From positions 1 to 14,393 of the forward strand of contig JAUXAJ010000112.1 in NCBI GenBank assembly GCA_030620005.1: a stretch of DNA of 14,393 nt, given 5' to 3'. Shown here one piece after another: positions 1 through 7,633 of this stretch. The translations under genes and the position numbers were made by a program. Numbering within the stretch: position 1 is the first letter of the stretch; every line of letters starts with the position of its first letter. Below the pieces are notes generated by a model, which saw only the letters and a list, made by a program, of their open reading frames with translations, had not been told where the DNA came from and ran no database searches. Origin of the DNA: Promethearchaeota archaeon (GTDB taxonomy: Archaea; Asgardarchaeota; Lokiarchaeia; Sigynarchaeales; SOKP01).

Positions 1-1
1 A

Positions 2-184
2 GAAAAAGAAAAAGCAAGACTGAAAGAAGCAAAGGGAAGCGAAAGAGCCGTACAAGAAGAAGAAAAAGCTAAATTGAAAGCAGCAAGAGAAGAAGAGAAA
101 GCAAGACTGAAAGCAGCAAAGAGAGAAGAAAAAGCAGCAAAGGAAGAAGAGAAAGCAGCAAAGGAAGAAGAAAAGGAAATATAA
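2..184 (+). CDS. C-terminal tail of a Glu/Lys/Arg-rich helical protein (5' end outside window)
   Basis: This is the open 3' end of a gene that begins left of the window; 60 codons are visible before TAA at 182-184. The residues are almost only E, K, A, R and L, in runs such as EEEKARLKAAR, which predicts one long, highly charged, solvent-exposed helix. The first 119 bases are identical to 5905-6023, in the tail of the longin-like/winged-helix gene at 4715-6145, and the 3' end and flank (151-245) match 6112-6206 with two mismatches. The parsimonious reading is that this belongs to a paralogue of that gene whose N-terminal domains are outside the window. It differs by a shorter repeat block (KREEKAAKEEEKAAKEEEKEI at the end). 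An assembly artefact at a repeat, where contigs tend to break, is the main alternative. Function cannot be inferred from the tail alone. Confidence 0.7.
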   Translation, partial: EKEKARLKEAKGSERAVQEEEKAKLKAAREEEKARLKAAKREEKAAKEEEKAAKEEEKEI

Positions 185-632: not shown

Positions 633-3600
633 ATGAAAACGAAAAGTATTATTTTACTTTCCATTTTTATAGTTTCGGCTTTTTTACTAGGACCGTCGTT
701 GAATAGCACTAATAATTCAATTGCAAATACTAAAGCAAACAACGACCTTCAAGAAATAAATTTAAATATTAATAATGAGAGCCCAAAAACGAGCAATTCA
801 GTATCCAATTCTGAATGGTGGGATGGTGATTGGAGGTTTCGGATACCATTAACCACAAGTCTTTGTGAATACAAAAAAATGGATATTCATGTATATAGTA
901 CTATAAATTTTACTAAATACTTGCAAATATTAGGTGTTTCGGGAGAAACTTTTGATGTAAATTCGATTAGATTAATAGAATATCTTGATGAGAATACATA
1001 TTTTGAGACTCCTTATAAAATCAATGGTTCTAGTGCCAATCCAGAAAAAATTCAAATTGTTTGGATATTAAATGGAACAACACTCGCAGACACGAGTAGG
1101 TTATTTTATCTATATTTTGACACTGATGAATTTGGTCCAAAAACGGCACCAACTTATGAAAATCTCTTTTCTGGTACAAGATCACAATATGAGAATGATT
1201 ATTTAATTCTTGATGATCAAATTAACTGGTATTCATGGACAGATTCAACGACTCAATTAACAGGTGCAGAAAGTAAAAGCTTGACTGATGGAACATACAT
1301 AGCAGGCGATAATGCATTTAGATCCAATGGAAATGACCATTTTCAAGGTTGGTCTTTGATAAATTACCCACCTTTTAATTTTTCAGTTGGAGATAACGAT
1401 GATCAAATTCGATATATTGATGTATGGTGGTATTATATGGATAGCAATGCTGATATATCTCTTCAAATTCAGGATGACGGTAGTTGGGCTAAAAGATGGG
1501 GTTATGATGTAGACCCAGTTTTTGATGGTTATAGTTGGACAAGAGAAGGAAATTATGTGAATCAAGACGCAAATAAATGGCGTTTTTATAGAATGGATTT
1601 AGTGGATCAATTGCATATGACTCCTGATAGTTGGATTACAGGTCTAGCTTTCTCATCTGATAATGGTGATGTTATTTATGACCATATAATGTTCGAAAAA
1701 TATAATACAACAGATATTATTCTTGGAACTGAGCCTGAGAAAAAAACTGCTGAAATGACTATCATCACGAAAGATGTTGACGGTCAGGTTGTTGTTGGAG
1801 CTGAAGTTTATTTACTGAATCTCTCAGCAACAGTTCCCATTGTAAAAAGTGGAGTATCAAATGAACAAGGAGAAGTTATTTTTGAAAACGTAACCTATGG
1901 CGTATATAATATAACAGTTAATTATACATTAACACCTGGTCTTGAGAGAGTTGTTTATAATAGTTCGCAATTAGGCGTAAAGTATAATATTACAACGCTC
2001 TATCCAATAATTTATCTTAAACTGGACTTATGGACGATAGGCTTTAAAATTCAAGACCAAGATGAAAAAGACATTAACCTCGGTTATATAAATGTGAAGG
2101 AAAAATACGGAGGATCATCTTTAATAAATCTAACTCTTGATGAAACTGGATGTCAAAATTTCGTTTGGTCGAATAAATCTTCATATTACTACGAGATCTA
2201 TTATAATAACGACGATTATACTCCTAAAGAGACATTAATAGATAACGGAACCGTGTCGAGAAAAACAAAATTTATAAATTCAACTACAATTAATGTTGTG
2301 GATTATAATGAATATGGTAGCAGTCAACGTGAATATAAAGCAGAAAAAAGTTTTCTTGTAAGTGGAACAAACCAAAGCGGGTCAACCTATGAAATTGGTT
2401 TTCAAACAATAGTCTCAGCTAATATCACTTTAACCAATATGCAAGAAAATTTGACTTCTGTTAATGTTTGGTATATAGATAAGAACGGAGAAGATGATGG
2501 GACGGATTATCTTTTAGTATCAAAAAGCTATACAACAGAAACAAGTGATTTCTTGTCATTTAATTTAACTGGTGTAAAAGAGGCATATGGTCTAAGAATT
2601 ATAGTTATTGGAGAGAATAGAAGTACATGTAGTGGAACAATAAACGTTTCATTTACCGAAACTCAAACAGAACATGTCAATGTAAATATGTCTTCAATGG
2701 AAATTTATGTTACTACTGAAACAGGAGAACCAGTCTCAAATTTGATCGTCAAAATAACGAATTCTACTACCGGAGCTGAAATCGTGCAATTAACAACTTC
2801 ATCTGGTAATGCAAAAGACGCTTCTGGAAATCCATTTTGGTATTTACGTGGTGACTATAATATCTCGCTTATTTTCTATGGTAATTATATAAATTTCAAT
2901 TTAACAAGCGGACAACCAAAAACTACTGATTCTAAAAAAATTATACTAGACACATACACTACGCTTAATGTCGATGGTTTGCTTGATCCAACTAAATATA
3001 GATCTGCATTTAATGACACCATGGGAGACCAGACTGTAATTTGGAGGCAAAACATATATTTTCGAGTGAATTTTACAATTTCAGAGGATAGTGGAAAAAA
3101 TTGGACAGCAATAGAAGAACCTGCAACGGTTACATATTATCTTAAAACTATATCAAATATTATTCTCTTTACAGGAAATATGGACCCTCAAGGATATGGA
3201 TACTATGATAAAACATTAAATTCCAGTATTTTAATTGCTGATAATAACTATAAAATTATGTTGTTTGGGTATAAACAGGGATACATCGAACCAACGCCTG
3301 TAACATTTTTTATTACGATTACACCGATTCCAACAAGCACTAGTTTACATAACTGGAATAACCCTGCTCAAACTGTAACTCAATTTTCAGGATATTACAA
3401 TGAATTAGTTAATATTACAGTTTCATATTATCCTACTGGCTCTCCAAGCAAGAGATTGCTTGGAGCACTATTAGGCTATAATTGGGATTATGGTTCGGAT
3501 TCTAATATTGGAGAAGACCCGCTGCATCCCGGATATTATAGCCTTGAAATAAACACTTCATTAGCGCCTACAATTGCTCAATATGGCATCGATATTTCAA

Positions 3601-4715
3601 TTTCTCTTGAGAATTATACAACATACAGCTTTGTAACTTTACTCGGTATACTCCCAAGAATTACAACTATTAATGAAACAAAATCATTACTTCACAATTC
3701 GACAAGCATTTGGGTAAATAACTCATTCGTTTTCTATTATGAATATGTTGATACTCTAGTCCCTGAAAAAGTGGAAGGATTGGAAGTTGCAACATATTAT
3801 TGGTATAAATTAGACGCTGACGGTAATCCTATTGGTGATCCTAGTGAAGAAATCAATTTAGTAGAAACCTCTGATCATGTATATCAATTAGACTTTAACA
3901 CGGAAAATCGTAAGACAGGAGATTACGCACTTTTCATAACATTACAGAAAAATAATTACGAAGCGAGAAACGCTCTTATAAACCTTGAAATAAAATATCG
4001 AGAAATTACCGCCAAGATATCAGCTACAAATAAGGAAGGATCGCTAGTTAGCATTGTTAAAGGACAACCAATCGTGTTTTCAATAAAATTAACTGATCCT
4101 ACGAAAGGTTCGAGTTCTTCTTCAGGCGGAACCTCAACAACACAAGCAACGGTCCCTCTGAAAGGTGCCACGATAAAAATAACTTTAACCGAATTAAACA
4201 AGACTTACACGTTCAAGGAAGTTGCTGATGGAGTGTACAACCTAACGATTGCTACAACAGATCCCATATACGAAGCGTTTTTCACGCCCCAAACTATTAC
4301 GGCAGTGATAACGATCGAAAAAGAATATTACGAGACAGAATCGATTGAAATAACGATCGTCGTTGGCATGGAAGAAATACTTCCTGGATTTCCGCTGTTC
4401 TATTTCATCTTGCTTGTAATTGCGGTTGGTTCAGTTGTCGGTAGTCTTGCGACTTATAGATACATTCAGGTAGCAAAAATACCAAATTTCGTTAAAAAAG
4501 CTAGAGCCATGGGAAAAGCCGTGAAAGGGCACGAAGAAATCTCAGAATCGCTATTATATCCTGAGAAAGAAGCTTTTATAGCAAAGAGATTAGGAGAAAA
4601 ATGGAAGATGATAGGGCTATCATTAGAAGAAATCTTGGGAGTCAAGAGTAAGAAGGAATCAACAATCTCTAAGATAATGGGTACGAAAGATAAAACAGAA
4701 GGAGGTGTTGCGTGA
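633..4715 (+). CDS. Large secreted, membrane-anchored surface protein with beta-sandwich ectodomain
   Basis: About 1360 residues. The chosen start is ATG 633, which puts MKTK directly before a hydrophobic signal-peptide core (SIILLSIFIVSAFLLG); GTG 609 in the same frame would add eight residues, and neither has a Shine-Dalgarno site. An N-terminal domain begins WWDGDWRFRIPL (from about residue 62), resembling the DUF2341-type opening of archaeal surface proteins. A jelly-roll-like stretch and several Ig/carboxypeptidase-regulatory-like beta units follow (for example near 373-440 and 688-765), then a Ser/Gly/Thr linker near 1159-1172. About 40 N-X-S/T sequons suggest dense N-glycosylation. One transmembrane helix lies at about 1254-1275, followed by an 85-residue basic, helical cytoplasmic tail beginning near KIPNFVKKARAMGKAVKG. 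This is type I topology with a large exterior and small interior part. The stop overlaps the next start (TGATG), so it is coupled to the longin-like gene. An adhesin, receptor or S-layer-associated role is inferred; ligand unknown. Confidence 0.85.
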   Translation: MKTKSIILLSIFIVSAFLLGPSLNSTNNSIANTKANNDLQEINLNINNESPKTSNSVSNSEWWDGDWRFRIPLTTSLCEYKKMDIHVYSTINFTKYLQILGVSGETFDVNSIRLIEYLDENTYFETPYKINGSSANPEKIQIVWILNGTTLADTSRLFYLYFDTDEFGPKTAPTYENLFSGTRSQYENDYLILDDQINWYSWTDSTTQLTGAESKSLTDGTYIAGDNAFRSNGNDHFQGWSLINYPPFNFSVGDNDDQIRYIDVWWYYMDSNADISLQIQDDGSWAKRWGYDVDPVFDGYSWTREGNYVNQDANKWRFYRMDLVDQLHMTPDSWITGLAFSSDNGDVIYDHIMFEKYNTTDIILGTEPEKKTAEMTIITKDVDGQVVVGAEVYLLNLSATVPIVKSGVSNEQGEVIFENVTYGVYNITVNYTLTPGLERVVYNSSQLGVKYNITTLYPIIYLKLDLWTIGFKIQDQDEKDINLGYINVKEKYGGSSLINLTLDETGCQNFVWSNKSSYYYEIYYNNDDYTPKETLIDNGTVSRKTKFINSTTINVVDYNEYGSSQREYKAEKSFLVSGTNQSGSTYEIGFQTIVSANITLTNMQENLTSVNVWYIDKNGEDDGTDYLLVSKSYTTETSDFLSFNLTGVKEAYGLRIIVIGENRSTCSGTINVSFTETQTEHVNVNMSSMEIYVTTETGEPVSNLIVKITNSTTGAEIVQLTTSSGNAKDASGNPFWYLRGDYNISLIFYGNYINFNLTSGQPKTTDSKKIILDTYTTLNVDGLLDPTKYRSAFNDTMGDQTVIWRQNIYFRVNFTISEDSGKNWTAIEEPATVTYYLKTISNIILFTGNMDPQGYGYYDKTLNSSILIADNNYKIMLFGYKQGYIEPTPVTFFITITPIPTSTSLHNWNNPAQTVTQFSGYYNELVNITVSYYPTGSPSKRLLGALLGYNWDYGSDSNIGEDPLHPGYYSLEINTSLAPTIAQYGIDISISLENYTTYSFVTLLGILPRITTINETKSLLHNSTSIWVNNSFVFYYEYVDTLVPEKVEGLEVATYYWYKLDADGNPIGDPSEEINLVETSDHVYQLDFNTENRKTGDYALFITLQKNNYEARNALINLEIKYREITAKISATNKEGSLVSIVKGQPIVFSIKLTDPTKGSSSSSGGTSTTQATVPLKGATIKITLTELNKTYTFKEVADGVYNLTIATTDPIYEAFFTPQTITAVITIEKEYYETESIEITIVVGMEEILPGFPLFYFILLVIAVGSVVGSLATYRYIQVAKIPNFVKKARAMGKAVKGHEEISESLLYPEKEAFIAKRLGEKWKMIGLSLEEILGVKSKKESTISKIMGTKDKTEGGVA
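4701..4707 (+). promoter_or_regulatory. Strong Shine-Dalgarno site for the longin-like gene
   Basis: GGAGGTG lies inside the last codons of the surface-protein gene, seven bases before ATG 4715. This selects ATG 4715 over the in-frame GTG at 4712 and makes the downstream gene translatable both by reinitiation and by direct ribosome binding. Most other genes in the window have no comparable site, so high output of this protein is plausible. Confidence 0.75.
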
Positions 4716-6145
4716 TGCCAGTCGGATTAGTTGTAATGAGATGGGACGAAAGAGTAGGCACTGAAATATTAGCTAAACATCCCGAAGAGATTAACGTTAC
4801 TGACAAGACGCTCATGCAAGTGTATAGTACTCACGAGTACAGCGGCGAATCTGGAATGATAAGTTTAATGGTTGGAGCGTTGAACATTGCTTCTTATTAC
4901 ACGGGACCAGAAAAAGGATTTTACATTCTCTTGTTATTAAGCCTTGACGACGACCCTGATTCGTACGAGGGGGGATTAGCTGACGCATCGAGAGTCATTT
5001 TGCAAAATATTGAAGATGAATCATTCATACCAATGATACCCTCGTTATTCCAACGAATCTCCGTCTATCCCACGCTAAACAAAGAACAACGGATAGCCAT
5101 GACTTATCAAGACGATATTAAACGGATGATTATCAATCGTTTGAGGGAAGAAGGTGCTGTTTCGAAATCGGAATTATTAGTCTGGTTAAAGGACAAATAC
5201 AAGCGAGGATTTGTCGATTTAGAAGGAGTTTTAATCGATCTCATTAAACGAGAGTTGATTAAAGAAACATCAGTAAAGGGGATGCCATCGGAATTGGTTT
5301 TTCTTACGAATGACATATTAATGATTCGAACACCACCAGCAAAGCTTTTAGAAGAACCTTCTGAACACGGTTTACCTTTGCAGCTATCGGCAGATTATCA
5401 GTTGGAAGTAAAAAAATTTTTCCAGAGTTATCGCCCTACAGAGGAAGATACCCTAAGAGTTTTAGAAGCGTTTACAAATCCCCAAGTTTACGAAACTTTA
5501 CGCTTGTTAAGAACTGCGGTAGTAACAAGGAACGATTTAGAAAAGCTGAAAAAGAAAGGAGTAGAAGACGTTGATGACGTGTTAAAAAGTCTTTGGGATA
5601 ATAAAATGATTCAAGTTTTTCAAGACGATAAAAATAACGAGTATTATGCCTTAATTTCAGATATCTACATCGACCTTATCTTTCCTAAATACCTCTTAAA
5701 TGTAATAAAAAGCGAATACGATCAAAGGTCTAAAGCAGAACCAGTTTTATTGGAATATCTCAATGTGCTTGAAGACTCATACATGAGCTTGAAATCTTCA
5801 AAAAAATCGGAAAGAACACCAGAAGAAAAAGAAAGAGCTAAAGCGGCAAGAAGGGAAAAAAAAGCAGCAAGAGAAGAAGAAAAAGCAAGATTGAAAGCAG
5901 AAAAAGAAAAAGAAAAAGCAAGACTGAAAGAAGCAAAGGGAAGCGAAAGAGCCGTACAAGAAGAAGAAAAAGCTAAATTGAAAGCAGCAAGAGAAGAAGA
6001 GAAAGCAAGACTGAAAGCAGCAAGAGAAGAAGAGAAAGCAAGACTGAAAGCAGCAAAGGAAGAAGAGAAAGCAAGACTGAAAGCAGCAAGAGAAGAAGAG
6101 AAAGCAAGACTGAAAGCAGCAAAGGAAGAAGAAAAGGAAATATAA
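4715..6145 (+). CDS. Longin-like / tandem winged-helix protein with long charged helical tail
   Basis: 476 residues from ATG 4715. Residues 1-120 begin MPVGLVVMRWDERVGTEILA and alternate strands and helices like a longin/roadblock (profilin-fold) domain, ending at about SLFQRISVYPTL; such domains are abundant in Asgard archaea. Residues about 130-205 (REEGAVSKSELLVWLKDKY, VDLEGVLIDLIKRELIKE) look like a winged helix, and a second is likely at 240-325 (TLRLLRTAVVTRNDLEKLKK ... YYALISDIYIDLIF). Residues 361-476 are nearly all E, K, R, A and L with an 11-residue repeat, predicting a single alpha-helix or coiled coil. No signal peptide or membrane segment: cytoplasmic. The one-base overlap with the surface-protein gene suggests that the two products work together, perhaps with this protein docking on the receptor's cytoplasmic tail. 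DNA binding versus protein binding by the winged helices cannot be decided. Domain calls are from pattern, not from a profile search. Confidence 0.75.
   Translation: MPVGLVVMRWDERVGTEILAKHPEEINVTDKTLMQVYSTHEYSGESGMISLMVGALNIASYYTGPEKGFYILLLLSLDDDPDSYEGGLADASRVILQNIEDESFIPMIPSLFQRISVYPTLNKEQRIAMTYQDDIKRMIINRLREEGAVSKSELLVWLKDKYKRGFVDLEGVLIDLIKRELIKETSVKGMPSELVFLTNDILMIRTPPAKLLEEPSEHGLPLQLSADYQLEVKKFFQSYRPTEEDTLRVLEAFTNPQVYETLRLLRTAVVTRNDLEKLKKKGVEDVDDVLKSLWDNKMIQVFQDDKNNEYYALISDIYIDLIFPKYLLNVIKSEYDQRSKAEPVLLEYLNVLEDSYMSLKSSKKSERTPEEKERAKAARREKKAAREEEKARLKAEKEKEKARLKEAKGSERAVQEEEKAKLKAAREEEKARLKAAREEEKARLKAAKEEEKARLKAAREEEKARLKAAKEEEKEI
5860..6142 (+). repeat. 33-bp tandem repeats encoding an 11-residue charged helix unit
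   Basis: The 3' end of the gene is built from units encoding EEEKARLKAAR or EEEKARLKAAK. The clean copies run from about 5979 to 6130 and degenerate copies lie before. E at i and K/R at i+4 recur, as in ER/K single-alpha-helix domains; a hendecad coiled coil is the alternative because L and A recur every 11 residues. A shorter version is at 2-184. Such tracts expand and contract by slippage, which explains the 57-base length difference between the two copies. Confidence 0.8.
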
Positions 6146-6183: not shown

Positions 6184-6278
6184 ATATCATATCATTTTGA
6201 ATCTAGATCTATCAAAACATTTTTGAATTTTCTTCAACTATTTCAATTGTTCACTAAACAATAATAAAATGAAAAGTG

Positions 6279-7367
6279 ATGGAATTGGAAGAAAGTTGTA
6301 AGCAATATTTAGAAAATCCGGAAGCTTTAGGCCTTGATGGAATTGATATCGAAAATTACATCATTGCTTCTTACATAATAAAAAAGCCGAAAGGAATGAA
6401 CATGAACTACATGTCTCGTTTTGCCGCAATTGAGCAATCTACTGGAACGTGGGTCAGAGTCCCCGCTGAAACCGCAGAAGTTCGAAAAAATCATGTTGCT
6501 AAAGTTTTAGGCGTCTATGAGCTACCTTTTTACGAGTATAGCGTTCCTAAGGACGTGAAGGAGCGAACATATTTCGTTCAGATTGGTTTTCCAAAAGTAA
6601 ACTTGCGCCCTCAGATACCCATGCTTTTTACAACGGTAATTGGAAACATAAGTCTAACATATGGGTTAAAACTGGTTGATGTTGCGTTTCCAAAGGATTG
6701 GTTGGAGGGATTTAAAGGACCTAAGTTTGGACTTGATGGCATTAGAAAACTATTAAAGGTTCCGTCCCGTCCACTACTTAATAACATGATAAAACCTTGC
6801 ACGGGGCACACCGCTGAGGTAGGAGCCGATTTGTTCTATAAAGCTGCTGTTGGTGGCTGTGATGTAGTTAAAGATGATGAGTTAATCTCAAATCCAGAGT
6901 TTAATACAGTTGAGGAGAGAATTGTAAAATACATGGAAGCGTGCGACAGAGCTGACGCAGAGAAGGGAGAAAAAACCTTATATACGATCAATGTAACGAA
7001 TAAACTTCCCGACATGTTTGAGCTAGCAGATAAAGCTATAGAATTGGGAGCAAATGCTTTAATGGTGAATTATGCGGCCGTAGGATTTTCCGCAATGCGA
7101 CAAATTTGCGAAGATCCTTCCATTAAGGTACCTGTTTTGGCACACATGGACTTCGCTGGAACGTATTTTGGTGGCGAATGGACGGGATTGACTTCTATGC
7201 TGACGCTTGGTAAACTCCCTCGAATTTGCGGATGTGACATCATTGTAGTGCCTGCCCCTTATGGAAAAGCTGAAATTCTTGATGAAAGATACGAATCCAT
7301 TTTAAAAGCCCTTCGATATCCGCTGAAACACATCAAGCCGACCCTGCCAATGCCCTCACTTGCGTAA
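6279..7367 (+). CDS. RuBisCO-like protein, large N-terminal part (frame ends before last barrel strands)
   Basis: 362 residues from ATG 6279 (in-frame GTG 6276 is an alternative). It covers the RuBisCO N-terminal domain and most of the barrel. Landmarks (residue here = spinach numbering): EQSTGTW gives E52 (E60); VIGN gives N123; NNMIKP gives K172 (K175); VVKDDE gives K198, D200 and E201 (the carbamylated K201, D203, E204); H289 in LAHMDFAG (H294); K330 in PYGKAEI (loop-6 K334). Residues unlike true carboxylases are C174 for K177, M290 for R295, and Ile where H327 is expected. This suggests a form IV RuBisCO-like protein (enolase, isomerase or other activity on a phosphorylated sugar or thiosugar) rather than a carboxylase; the substrate is unknown. 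The frame stops after PTLPMPSLA, just where family members have PSGGI or PSAGI; the remainder is in the overlapping frame 7367-7633. It stands alone, with no Calvin or AMP-pathway genes nearby. Confidence 0.85.
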   Translation: MELEESCKQYLENPEALGLDGIDIENYIIASYIIKKPKGMNMNYMSRFAAIEQSTGTWVRVPAETAEVRKNHVAKVLGVYELPFYEYSVPKDVKERTYFVQIGFPKVNLRPQIPMLFTTVIGNISLTYGLKLVDVAFPKDWLEGFKGPKFGLDGIRKLLKVPSRPLLNNMIKPCTGHTAEVGADLFYKAAVGGCDVVKDDELISNPEFNTVEERIVKYMEACDRADAEKGEKTLYTINVTNKLPDMFELADKAIELGANALMVNYAAVGFSAMRQICEDPSIKVPVLAHMDFAGTYFGGEWTGLTSMLTLGKLPRICGCDIIVVPAPYGKAEILDERYESILKALRYPLKHIKPTLPMPSLA

Positions 7368-7633
7368 TGGTTTCCATTTCAAGGGGTAAAGGTGGAATTA
7401 CTCAAGGCATGGTTGAAAAATGTGTAAAAGATGCGGGAACTGATATTCTCATTGGAAGCGGCGGAGGAATTCATAGCCATCCTGATGGGCCTACTGCGGG
7501 AGCTAAAGCATTTAGACAAGCAATCAATGCCGTAATGCAAGGAATTCCTGTAAAAACTTATGCTAAGGAACATAAAGAATTAGGAATAGCTCTTGGAGTA
7601 TGGGGCACTGGAAAAACAGCATTAATCGAATAA
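7367..7633 (+). CDS. RuBisCO-like protein, C-terminal part (barrel strands 7-8) in a shifted frame
   Basis: 88 residues reading GKGGITQGMV, then GTDILIGSGGGIHSHPDGPT and AGAKAFRQAINAVMQG. This is the standard RuBisCO C-terminal barrel region: the GGI loop and the second phosphate-binding GGG-x-x-x-HP-x-G-x-x-AGA motif. ATG 7367 shares its A with the stop of the upstream frame (TAATG), so reinitiation could make it as a separate chain. Joined to the upstream part it completes a protein of about 440-450 residues, normal for the family. The first ten residues (MVSISRGK) and the last two upstream (LA) have no counterpart between PS and GGI in typical relatives. See the finding on the 32-base insertion. 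It may be a true split gene, a broken gene or a sequencing error. Confidence 0.75.
   Translation: MVSISRGKGGITQGMVEKCVKDAGTDILIGSGGGIHSHPDGPTAGAKAFRQAINAVMQGIPVKTYAKEHKELGIALGVWGTGKTALIE

Follow-up and report, generated by a model that had tools for sequence, protein, structure and literature searches.

The 14,393-nt window analyzed here (contig JAUXAJ010000112.1 of the Promethearchaeota archaeon assembly GCA_030620005.1) carries at 633..6145 two adjacent genes, here called A and B, which encode a giant predicted surface protein and a protein modeled as a longin domain followed by two winged helices. A sequence-only reading of this region had described a translationally coupled module; the observation as a whole is confirmed, and the interpretation built upon it is supported in part. 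All features given below lie on the plus strand.

Genes A and B in the window

Gene A is an open reading frame (ORF) of 1360 codons (633..4715, with an ATG at 633 and its stop at 4713-4715), and an in-frame GTG lies upstream at 609. Hydropathy indicates a hydrophobic N-terminal stretch that may act as a signal or anchor and a single C-terminal transmembrane (TM) helix (4395..4451; residues 1255-1273 counted from the ATG at 633), followed by a conserved cytoplasmic tail of 86 residues (4455..4712) with the motif family ...ARIPxFVKK...W..LGLSL..ILG. The roughly 40 sequons and one membrane helix reported earlier are borne out: 40 N-X-S/T sequons are present in total, and residues 31-1255 contain 38 compared to 18.7 +/- 3.8 after shuffling, a number reached in 0 of 1000 residue shuffles. 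The tail, previously described as basic and 85 residues long, is present but only moderately basic (18 K/R and 11 D/E). The sole Pfam match of the window's A is a sub-threshold one to CarboxypepD_reg (9.9e-6, residues 381-431). Among five homologues scanned, one contains DUF2341 (2.3e-24), two contain Laminin_G_3 (7.6e-16 and 5.1e-15) and one has a significant CarboxypepD_reg match (3.6e-10), suggesting an ectodomain that is lectin- or immunoglobulin (Ig)-like and variable. By its sequence, A is a secreted, sequon-rich surface protein with a cytoplasmic tail in its predicted topology. Immediately before the TM helix, at approximately 4383-4394, lies a PGFP motif, and PG[FIM]P occurs at this place in many relatives; it is reminiscent of the archaeosortase PGF-CTERM signal, but the TM helix of A is not C-terminal.

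Gene B (4715..6145, 476 codons) begins within the stop codon of A, as the TGA at 4713-4715 and the ATG at 4715 share one base in the sequence TGATG (4713..4717), and its ribosome-binding site GGAGGTG (4701..4707) is embedded in the 3' end of A, both as originally noted. The AlphaFold2 (AF2) model of B has a mean predicted local distance difference test score (pLDDT) of 80.7. Residues 1-120 (4715..5074) adopt in the model the longin topology bb-a-bbb-aa (E4-11 E15-22 H30-43 E47-53 E56-62 E69-76 H81-97 H105-116), with secondary-structure blocks at pLDDT 82-91 and a structural match to solved longins. Two winged helices are modeled at residues ~121-206 (5075..5332) and ~243-322 (5441..5680), with structural matches to bacterial regulators and weak winged-helix profile matches; the stretch that links the tail of A to the longin falls below pLDDT 50. 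The assignment of a longin domain and two winged helices, proposed before from the letters, is thus supported by the model and by matches to solved structures. No significant family was returned for B by Pfam or NCBIfam, no longin family appeared there at E <= 1 and E <= 0.1, respectively, and a sequence search of the PDB gave only weak winged-helix matches (best E 0.034). The missing match to a curated longin family does not bar a shared fold. A tblastn search of viral contigs found no relative of B.

The rod-like helix of about 110 residues that the sequence-only reading counted as part of B was dropped as a functional element. It corresponds to a 33-nt tandem repeat encoding a charged C-terminal extension (residues 367-476, 5813..6142), which is absent from the fetched relatives. 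The other close B ORFs under 480 aa (n = 59, two of them contig-cut fusions) span 359-416 aa with a set median of 370, placing the rod outside the conserved machine of B. The window opens with the 3' end of another B-like ORF (1..184, repeat tail only), whose 3' flank is nearly identical to that of B for ~65 nt, and the local gene order is therefore probably B1-A-B2, as in the loci L004, L107 and L110.

Pairing and fusion of A and B in relatives

Relatives of B were detected in 156 of the 227 genomes searched in the phylum, with at most 8 candidates scored per genome. A profile of the TM helix and tail of A gave 112 strong matches from 61 Asgard genomes (only matches at E < 1e-20 were counted, and weaker rows were left out). 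The earlier label of a lineage-specific family is too narrow for this distribution, though the upstream copy on which it was based is supported. A listed B gene lies 4-432 nt downstream on the same strand of 107 of the 112 strong tails, this count using 131 B rows among the matches listed and leaving out 19 further listed rows (E 5.5e-70 to 2.2e-56). A count of how often an anchored surface protein comes before the longin-like gene had been proposed as a check, and among close B genes the coupling extends across the phylum. Counting the window's own, the loci that were read contain 78 close B genes: 54 have a tail ORF upstream, 18 are fused to it, 2 are cut off by a contig end and 4 have none. 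The 1-nt overlap seen in the window recurs in 34 of the 54 tail-preceded loci, the window included, and three of the four tail-less genes occupy the B1 position in a B1-A-B2 triplet (L004, L107, L110). Loci L005-L041 were excluded from the hydropathy, neighbor-gene and close-B tallies, and L060 and L061 from the B-neighbor and close-B counts. At the tier-2 loci L126, L127 and L128, a single B comes after two or three genes for surface proteins that match the tail weakly (12-26 bits), as would be expected from a shared docking tail. The order A, B, RuBisCO-like gene (where present), HEAT/LRR and his genes is common to the window and the longer ones of four Lokiarchaeota/Lokiarchaeia loci, and by these relatives the window is Lokiarchaeal. 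The window's RuBisCO-like gene (6276-7633) is split at 7367 into ORFs of 363 and 88 aa, while its uncut relatives are mostly a single ORF of 438-470 aa; we describe this only as a frameshift or assembly error.

The key evidence that A and B belong together is natural fusion: the loci fetched include 18 ORFs that encode both, in the order ectodomain, TM helix, tail, longin and two winged helices. As the loci read were chosen by us with a bias toward long-frame matches, 18 fused of 78 is not a frequency. Open frames around B matches extend up to 2,678 codons. The complete fusions have an N-terminal hydrophobic segment, a sequon-rich ectodomain of ~1,570-2,170 residues, the TM helix, the tail and B, and those bearing a signal measure 2,087-2,673 aa. 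They are found in L042 (4689-12635, 2648 aa), L043 (5374-13326, 2650 aa), L045 (2090 aa), L047 (two, of 2673 and 2645 aa), L048 (2432 aa) and L052 (2087 aa); the fusion in L044 (1642 aa) lacks the N-terminal hydrophobic segment, and L049 and L053 have short stop-bounded fused ORFs. Tails of fused proteins match the tail of A at 78-106 bits (lower in contig-cut copies) and their B parts match B at 463-523 bits. In a protein database, a TM-tail-B query was covered over at least 95% of its length by 42 of the 120 proteins listed (588 matches found). Of 58 loci with separate genes, 49 carry the motif GGAGG 4-20 nt upstream of B, and of 18 fused ones 0 do, the background rate being 0.9% in 2036 windows; the start site is lost exactly where the genes are fused, which provides an internal control.

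In a midpoint-rooted tree of 101 B domains, all 18 fused copies and two contig-cut ones form a single clade (support 100/99) nested among separate-gene Bs, making a single derived fusion event the simplest reading of the sequences. As labeled, the fused state needs 3 changes, the clade of 20 including L050 and L054, which are open at a contig end and were not counted as fused. Fusion as the ancestral state was considered and is disfavored by this tree, under the midpoint root only.

Taken together, fusion, coupling and pairing come close to showing that A and B form one unit. The physical association that had been proposed from the coupling finds strong support, since relatives encode the two as one polypeptide and, where the genes are separate, the start of B lies at the stop of A behind a ribosome-binding site within A. 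The defined stoichiometry, also proposed, is supported by the fused forms, in which the ratio is necessarily 1:1. Chance adjacency of unrelated genes was ruled out by the fusions, the 107 of 112 tail-B pairs and the several genomic contexts; no point in its favor was found, and we give it practically no weight. The architecture of a type-I TM receptor (signal, ectodomain, one TM helix and cytoplasmic effector) is present in the window and in the fusions, with topology predicted by hydropathy. Across 43 pairs, the median identity with the window's sequence rises from 31% in the ectodomain (21% when shuffled) through 47% in the TM helix and 50% in the tail to 69% in B, a gradient that fits a receptor.

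The fusions also bear on the suggestion that the module serves gene control. B would then be a membrane-tethered transcription regulator whose winged helices bind DNA once A is stimulated or cleaved, as might be proposed from the match of both winged helices to bacterial regulators and from the only functional name among the 120 database proteins listed, an automatic ArsR family regulator label (P0019). The fused forms, however, keep the winged helices tethered to the membrane, residues 1-366 of B are acidic (net charge -16), and the recognition helices LEGVLIDLIK and VDDVLKSLWD are acidic or hydrophobic. DNA binding by these domains is unlikely as judged from their sequence, and we consider such a regulator improbable.

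An Arf-like GTPase, an actin-like protein and a proposed receptor

In cluster c1, a recurrent neighbor of B (for example L002:2581-3618), ~110 N-terminal residues that are presumed from their residue pattern to be longin-like precede a GTPase domain resembling Arf (Pfam Arf, 4.1e-19 and 3e-24; PDB sequence match to Arf1, 9.5e-14). Of the 135 c1 matches listed, 26 have a B within 1.5 kb (0.39 expected by random placement), as do 10 of 29 in ten genomes that we selected among fusion carriers, their near relatives and assemblies with long contigs (0.18 expected); these enrichment statistics are overstated, as the query came from a gene next to B and synteny is shared by many of the loci. The cluster is present in 55 of the 61 strong-tail genomes, a figure inflated by kinship. 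A better argument for the linkage is its recurrence in separate contexts, namely tandem A-B units, a fusion locus, three loci of genome G086 and an operon in a distant clade (L089-L096, 8 loci) in which c1 follows B by 13-41 nt on the same strand. In several loci c1 is convergent to B, and in another context it flanks fusions. The operon of L089-L096 has the order orotate phosphoribosyltransferase-like gene (read from sequence; cut off in L093), B homologue and Arf-like GTPase, with a small helical protein of 106-120 aa also in order in 7 of the 8. In G086, longin-only relatives of B with open frames of 126-139 aa (G086:C6:274253, G086:C1:442735 and G086:C11:119813) occur ~0.6-2.1 kb from B-adjacent c1 genes and are perhaps a second longin of the complex.

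One B subtype is also linked to actin. The four loci of this subtype, L088, L098, L122 and L123, come from four genomes, and in each the operon continues after B with a protein of 278-287 aa, which we read as longin-like, and then with an actin-like gene whose actin-family product has 363-376 aa (L122:3040-4158, for example). The three loci with enough upstream sequence also have a surface gene ahead of B. The actin-like protein matches Pfam Actin (5.4e-28) and its best PDB matches are actins (1.2e-26). Across the eight genomes searched it is 21-28% identical to other actin-family matches and has close kin in these four only, so that it looks like a dedicated partner.

The account toward which we lean, at slightly better than even chances, is that A forms the outer half and B the inner half of a single type-I TM receptor or adhesin and that the longin of B recruits or regulates an Arf-family GTPase. 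A sugar-coated ectodomain with lectin- and Ig-like modules would contact something outside the cell, and the conserved juxtamembrane tail of A, the proposed docking element, would hold B against the inner face of the membrane. There the longin would bind the product of the neighboring Arf-like GTPase gene, perhaps through pairing with the presumed longin-like N-terminus of that product, and B would recruit this GTPase or set its nucleotide state, with its winged helices serving as protein-binding scaffolds. The GTPase in turn might act on the membrane or on the actin system. Docking by the tail, binding of c1, the direction of the signal and the GTPase step itself are what we infer here. The operonic actin-like gene of one B subtype is the basis for extending this to an axis in which the longin-winged-helix adaptor controls the Arf-like GTPase and, through it, actin-based protrusions, an extension we put forward tentatively. 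The sequence-only reading had foreseen a link from the cell surface to an internal structure or to gene control; the former finds support in outline, through the Arf-like GTPase and the one-subtype actin-like linkage, and the latter is disfavored.

The chief rival holds that A is a structural coat or adhesive protein and that B is a sorting or anchoring adaptor which places A on the membrane or on protrusions, with no inward signal. SNAREs and adaptor complexes likewise make use of longin domains, and we view this account as a minority possibility that deserves to be taken seriously. Linkage to one GTPase subfamily argues against it, as the 18 best-scoring listed c1 matches all lie beside B, although the query was itself B-adjacent and many of the loci are syntenic. 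Lokiarchaeal cells have been described as bounded by a single membrane from which surface proteins protrude, with an actin cytoskeleton and without a highly ordered S-layer (PMC9834061), and this picture fits both the receptor and the sorting accounts.

Pairing of a longin with an Arf-like GTPase raises a further alternative, that B acts as the receptor through which A is inserted or translocated. In the signal recognition particle (SRP) receptor, the alpha subunit, with its longin-like X domain, pairs with the Arf-like SR-beta, and there is a weak match to SRPRB (E 0.003) in the c1-like GTPase of L090. Fusion would place such a receptor at the C-terminus, where it is synthesized last, and Pfam gives B no SRP GTPase domain; we regard this as very improbable, slightly more so than a transcription regulator.

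Several observations weigh against the proposed receptor. Strong tails without a listed B number 5 of 112, and none of the 19 weaker B rows lies on the contigs of these five. No strong tail is found upstream of 24 of the 131 listed B matches (43 of 150 with the weaker rows). B loci at greater distance (150-400 bits) have a tail ORF upstream in only 5 of 24 cases, and the 8 tier-3 B paralogues from the ten selected genomes have none; there is likewise none at L136-L141. Distant relatives of B mostly occur without A, suggesting that B-like proteins also work without it. The genomes are related, so that the counts are not independent, and the expected counts assume random placement and take no account of common descent. 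For the GTPase, 109 of the 135 listed c1 matches are not beside a listed B, being mostly elsewhere in the genome; the c1 query was chosen as a neighbor of B, and its nearest orthologues in shared synteny are not independent. No c1 gene is present in the window, and in the window's clade the c1 genes mostly run convergently to B. When the profiles of c1 and B were compared, no homology was found (hhalign E 0.53), a result that slightly lowered our confidence in the receptor and slightly raised that in the sorting adaptor. The actin link is confined to one B subtype, and L125, another B locus of one of the actin-operon genomes, has no actin-like gene among its five genes.

Known systems and other neighboring genes

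In domain order, the closest comparison is to NPRL2 and NPRL3 of GATOR1/SEACIT, described as a longin followed by winged helices (PMC5681675). The AF2 model of B likewise has a longin and then two winged helices. No sequence match to NPRL2/3 was found for the window's B in Pfam at E <= 1 or for the family profile against GATOR1 chains at E <= 10. Whole-chain comparison of B with NPRL2/3 gave global TM-scores of 0.19-0.25 over long alignments, and for VIA the longin only was aligned. To our knowledge, NPRL2/3 have no receptor ectodomain and no fused TM helix. As for ESCRT-II (Vps22/Vps36), Pfam gives B no EAP30 match and the structure 2zme_A is matched only at a Foldseek E of 0.02. The longin SNAREs Vamp7, Ykt6 and Sec22b resemble B in having a cytoplasmic longin domain, and Vamp7 and Sec22b are membrane-anchored. 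In A-B, unlike these, a TM helix and a giant ectodomain precede the longin, winged helices rather than a SNARE motif follow it, and Pfam finds no SNARE family in B. An integrin or a receptor coupled to a guanine nucleotide exchange factor or GTPase-activating protein would work similarly to the proposed axis with different parts.

Asgard ESCRT-linked proteins include multidomain longin and helix-turn-helix (HTH) or PCI proteins, and their longins have been proposed to act on small GTPases; the longin/HTH/adaptin-appendage proteins carry Vps28-C or steadiness-box domains, of which Pfam gives B neither, and B differs further in being tied to a surface protein (PMC10936438). The available descriptions of Asgard roadblock and longin GTPase regulators include no surface protein coupled or fused to a longin-winged-helix protein. 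Lokiarchaeum is reported to encode 109 small GTPases and 41 longin domains, and whether putative operons reveal likely GTPase targets was listed in 2016 as an outstanding question (PMC4917890). According to a 2024 structural study, GTPase genes of MK-D1 are generally not in operons with longin genes, and pairing GTPases with regulators from genome layout is difficult (PMC10933270). The earlier remark that no described system of this composition was known agrees with what is accessible of the open-licence PubMed Central literature (a corpus without preprints and most subscription papers), in which no giant surface protein coupled or fused to a longin-winged-helix protein was found; within that corpus, the parts are known folds and the combination is without a described counterpart. 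The module names a testable trio of surface receptor, longin-winged-helix adaptor and Arf-like GTPase. If the proposal is true, Arf-family GTPases, and perhaps actin, would have come under outside-in control before eukaryotes arose, suggesting an archaeal receptor acting on machinery once deemed special to eukaryotes.

Other genes recur near the module. A Gtr1/RagA-like GTPase (L001:329-1264, Pfam 3.4e-25) is part of its recurrent upstream block in Lokiarchaea (cluster c7, 14 members), and an FtsZ-like gene (L072:958-2139, read from sequence) lies next to both an A-B pair and a gene for an Arf-like GTPase. Homologous proteins of 634-713 aa, 25-82% identical and by eye composed of a winged helix and a long coiled coil, adjoin tier-2 B or surface genes (L126:8976, L127:4216, L128:8730, L130:465, L131:3856 and L132:9377). 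A JAB/MPN-domain protein with a C-terminal hydrophobic helix (L099:3489-4148, Pfam 8.3e-15, and the same gene in L100) is encoded 97 nt and 333 nt upstream of a B homologue in L099 and L100, respectively, a possible link to the Asgard ubiquitin system.

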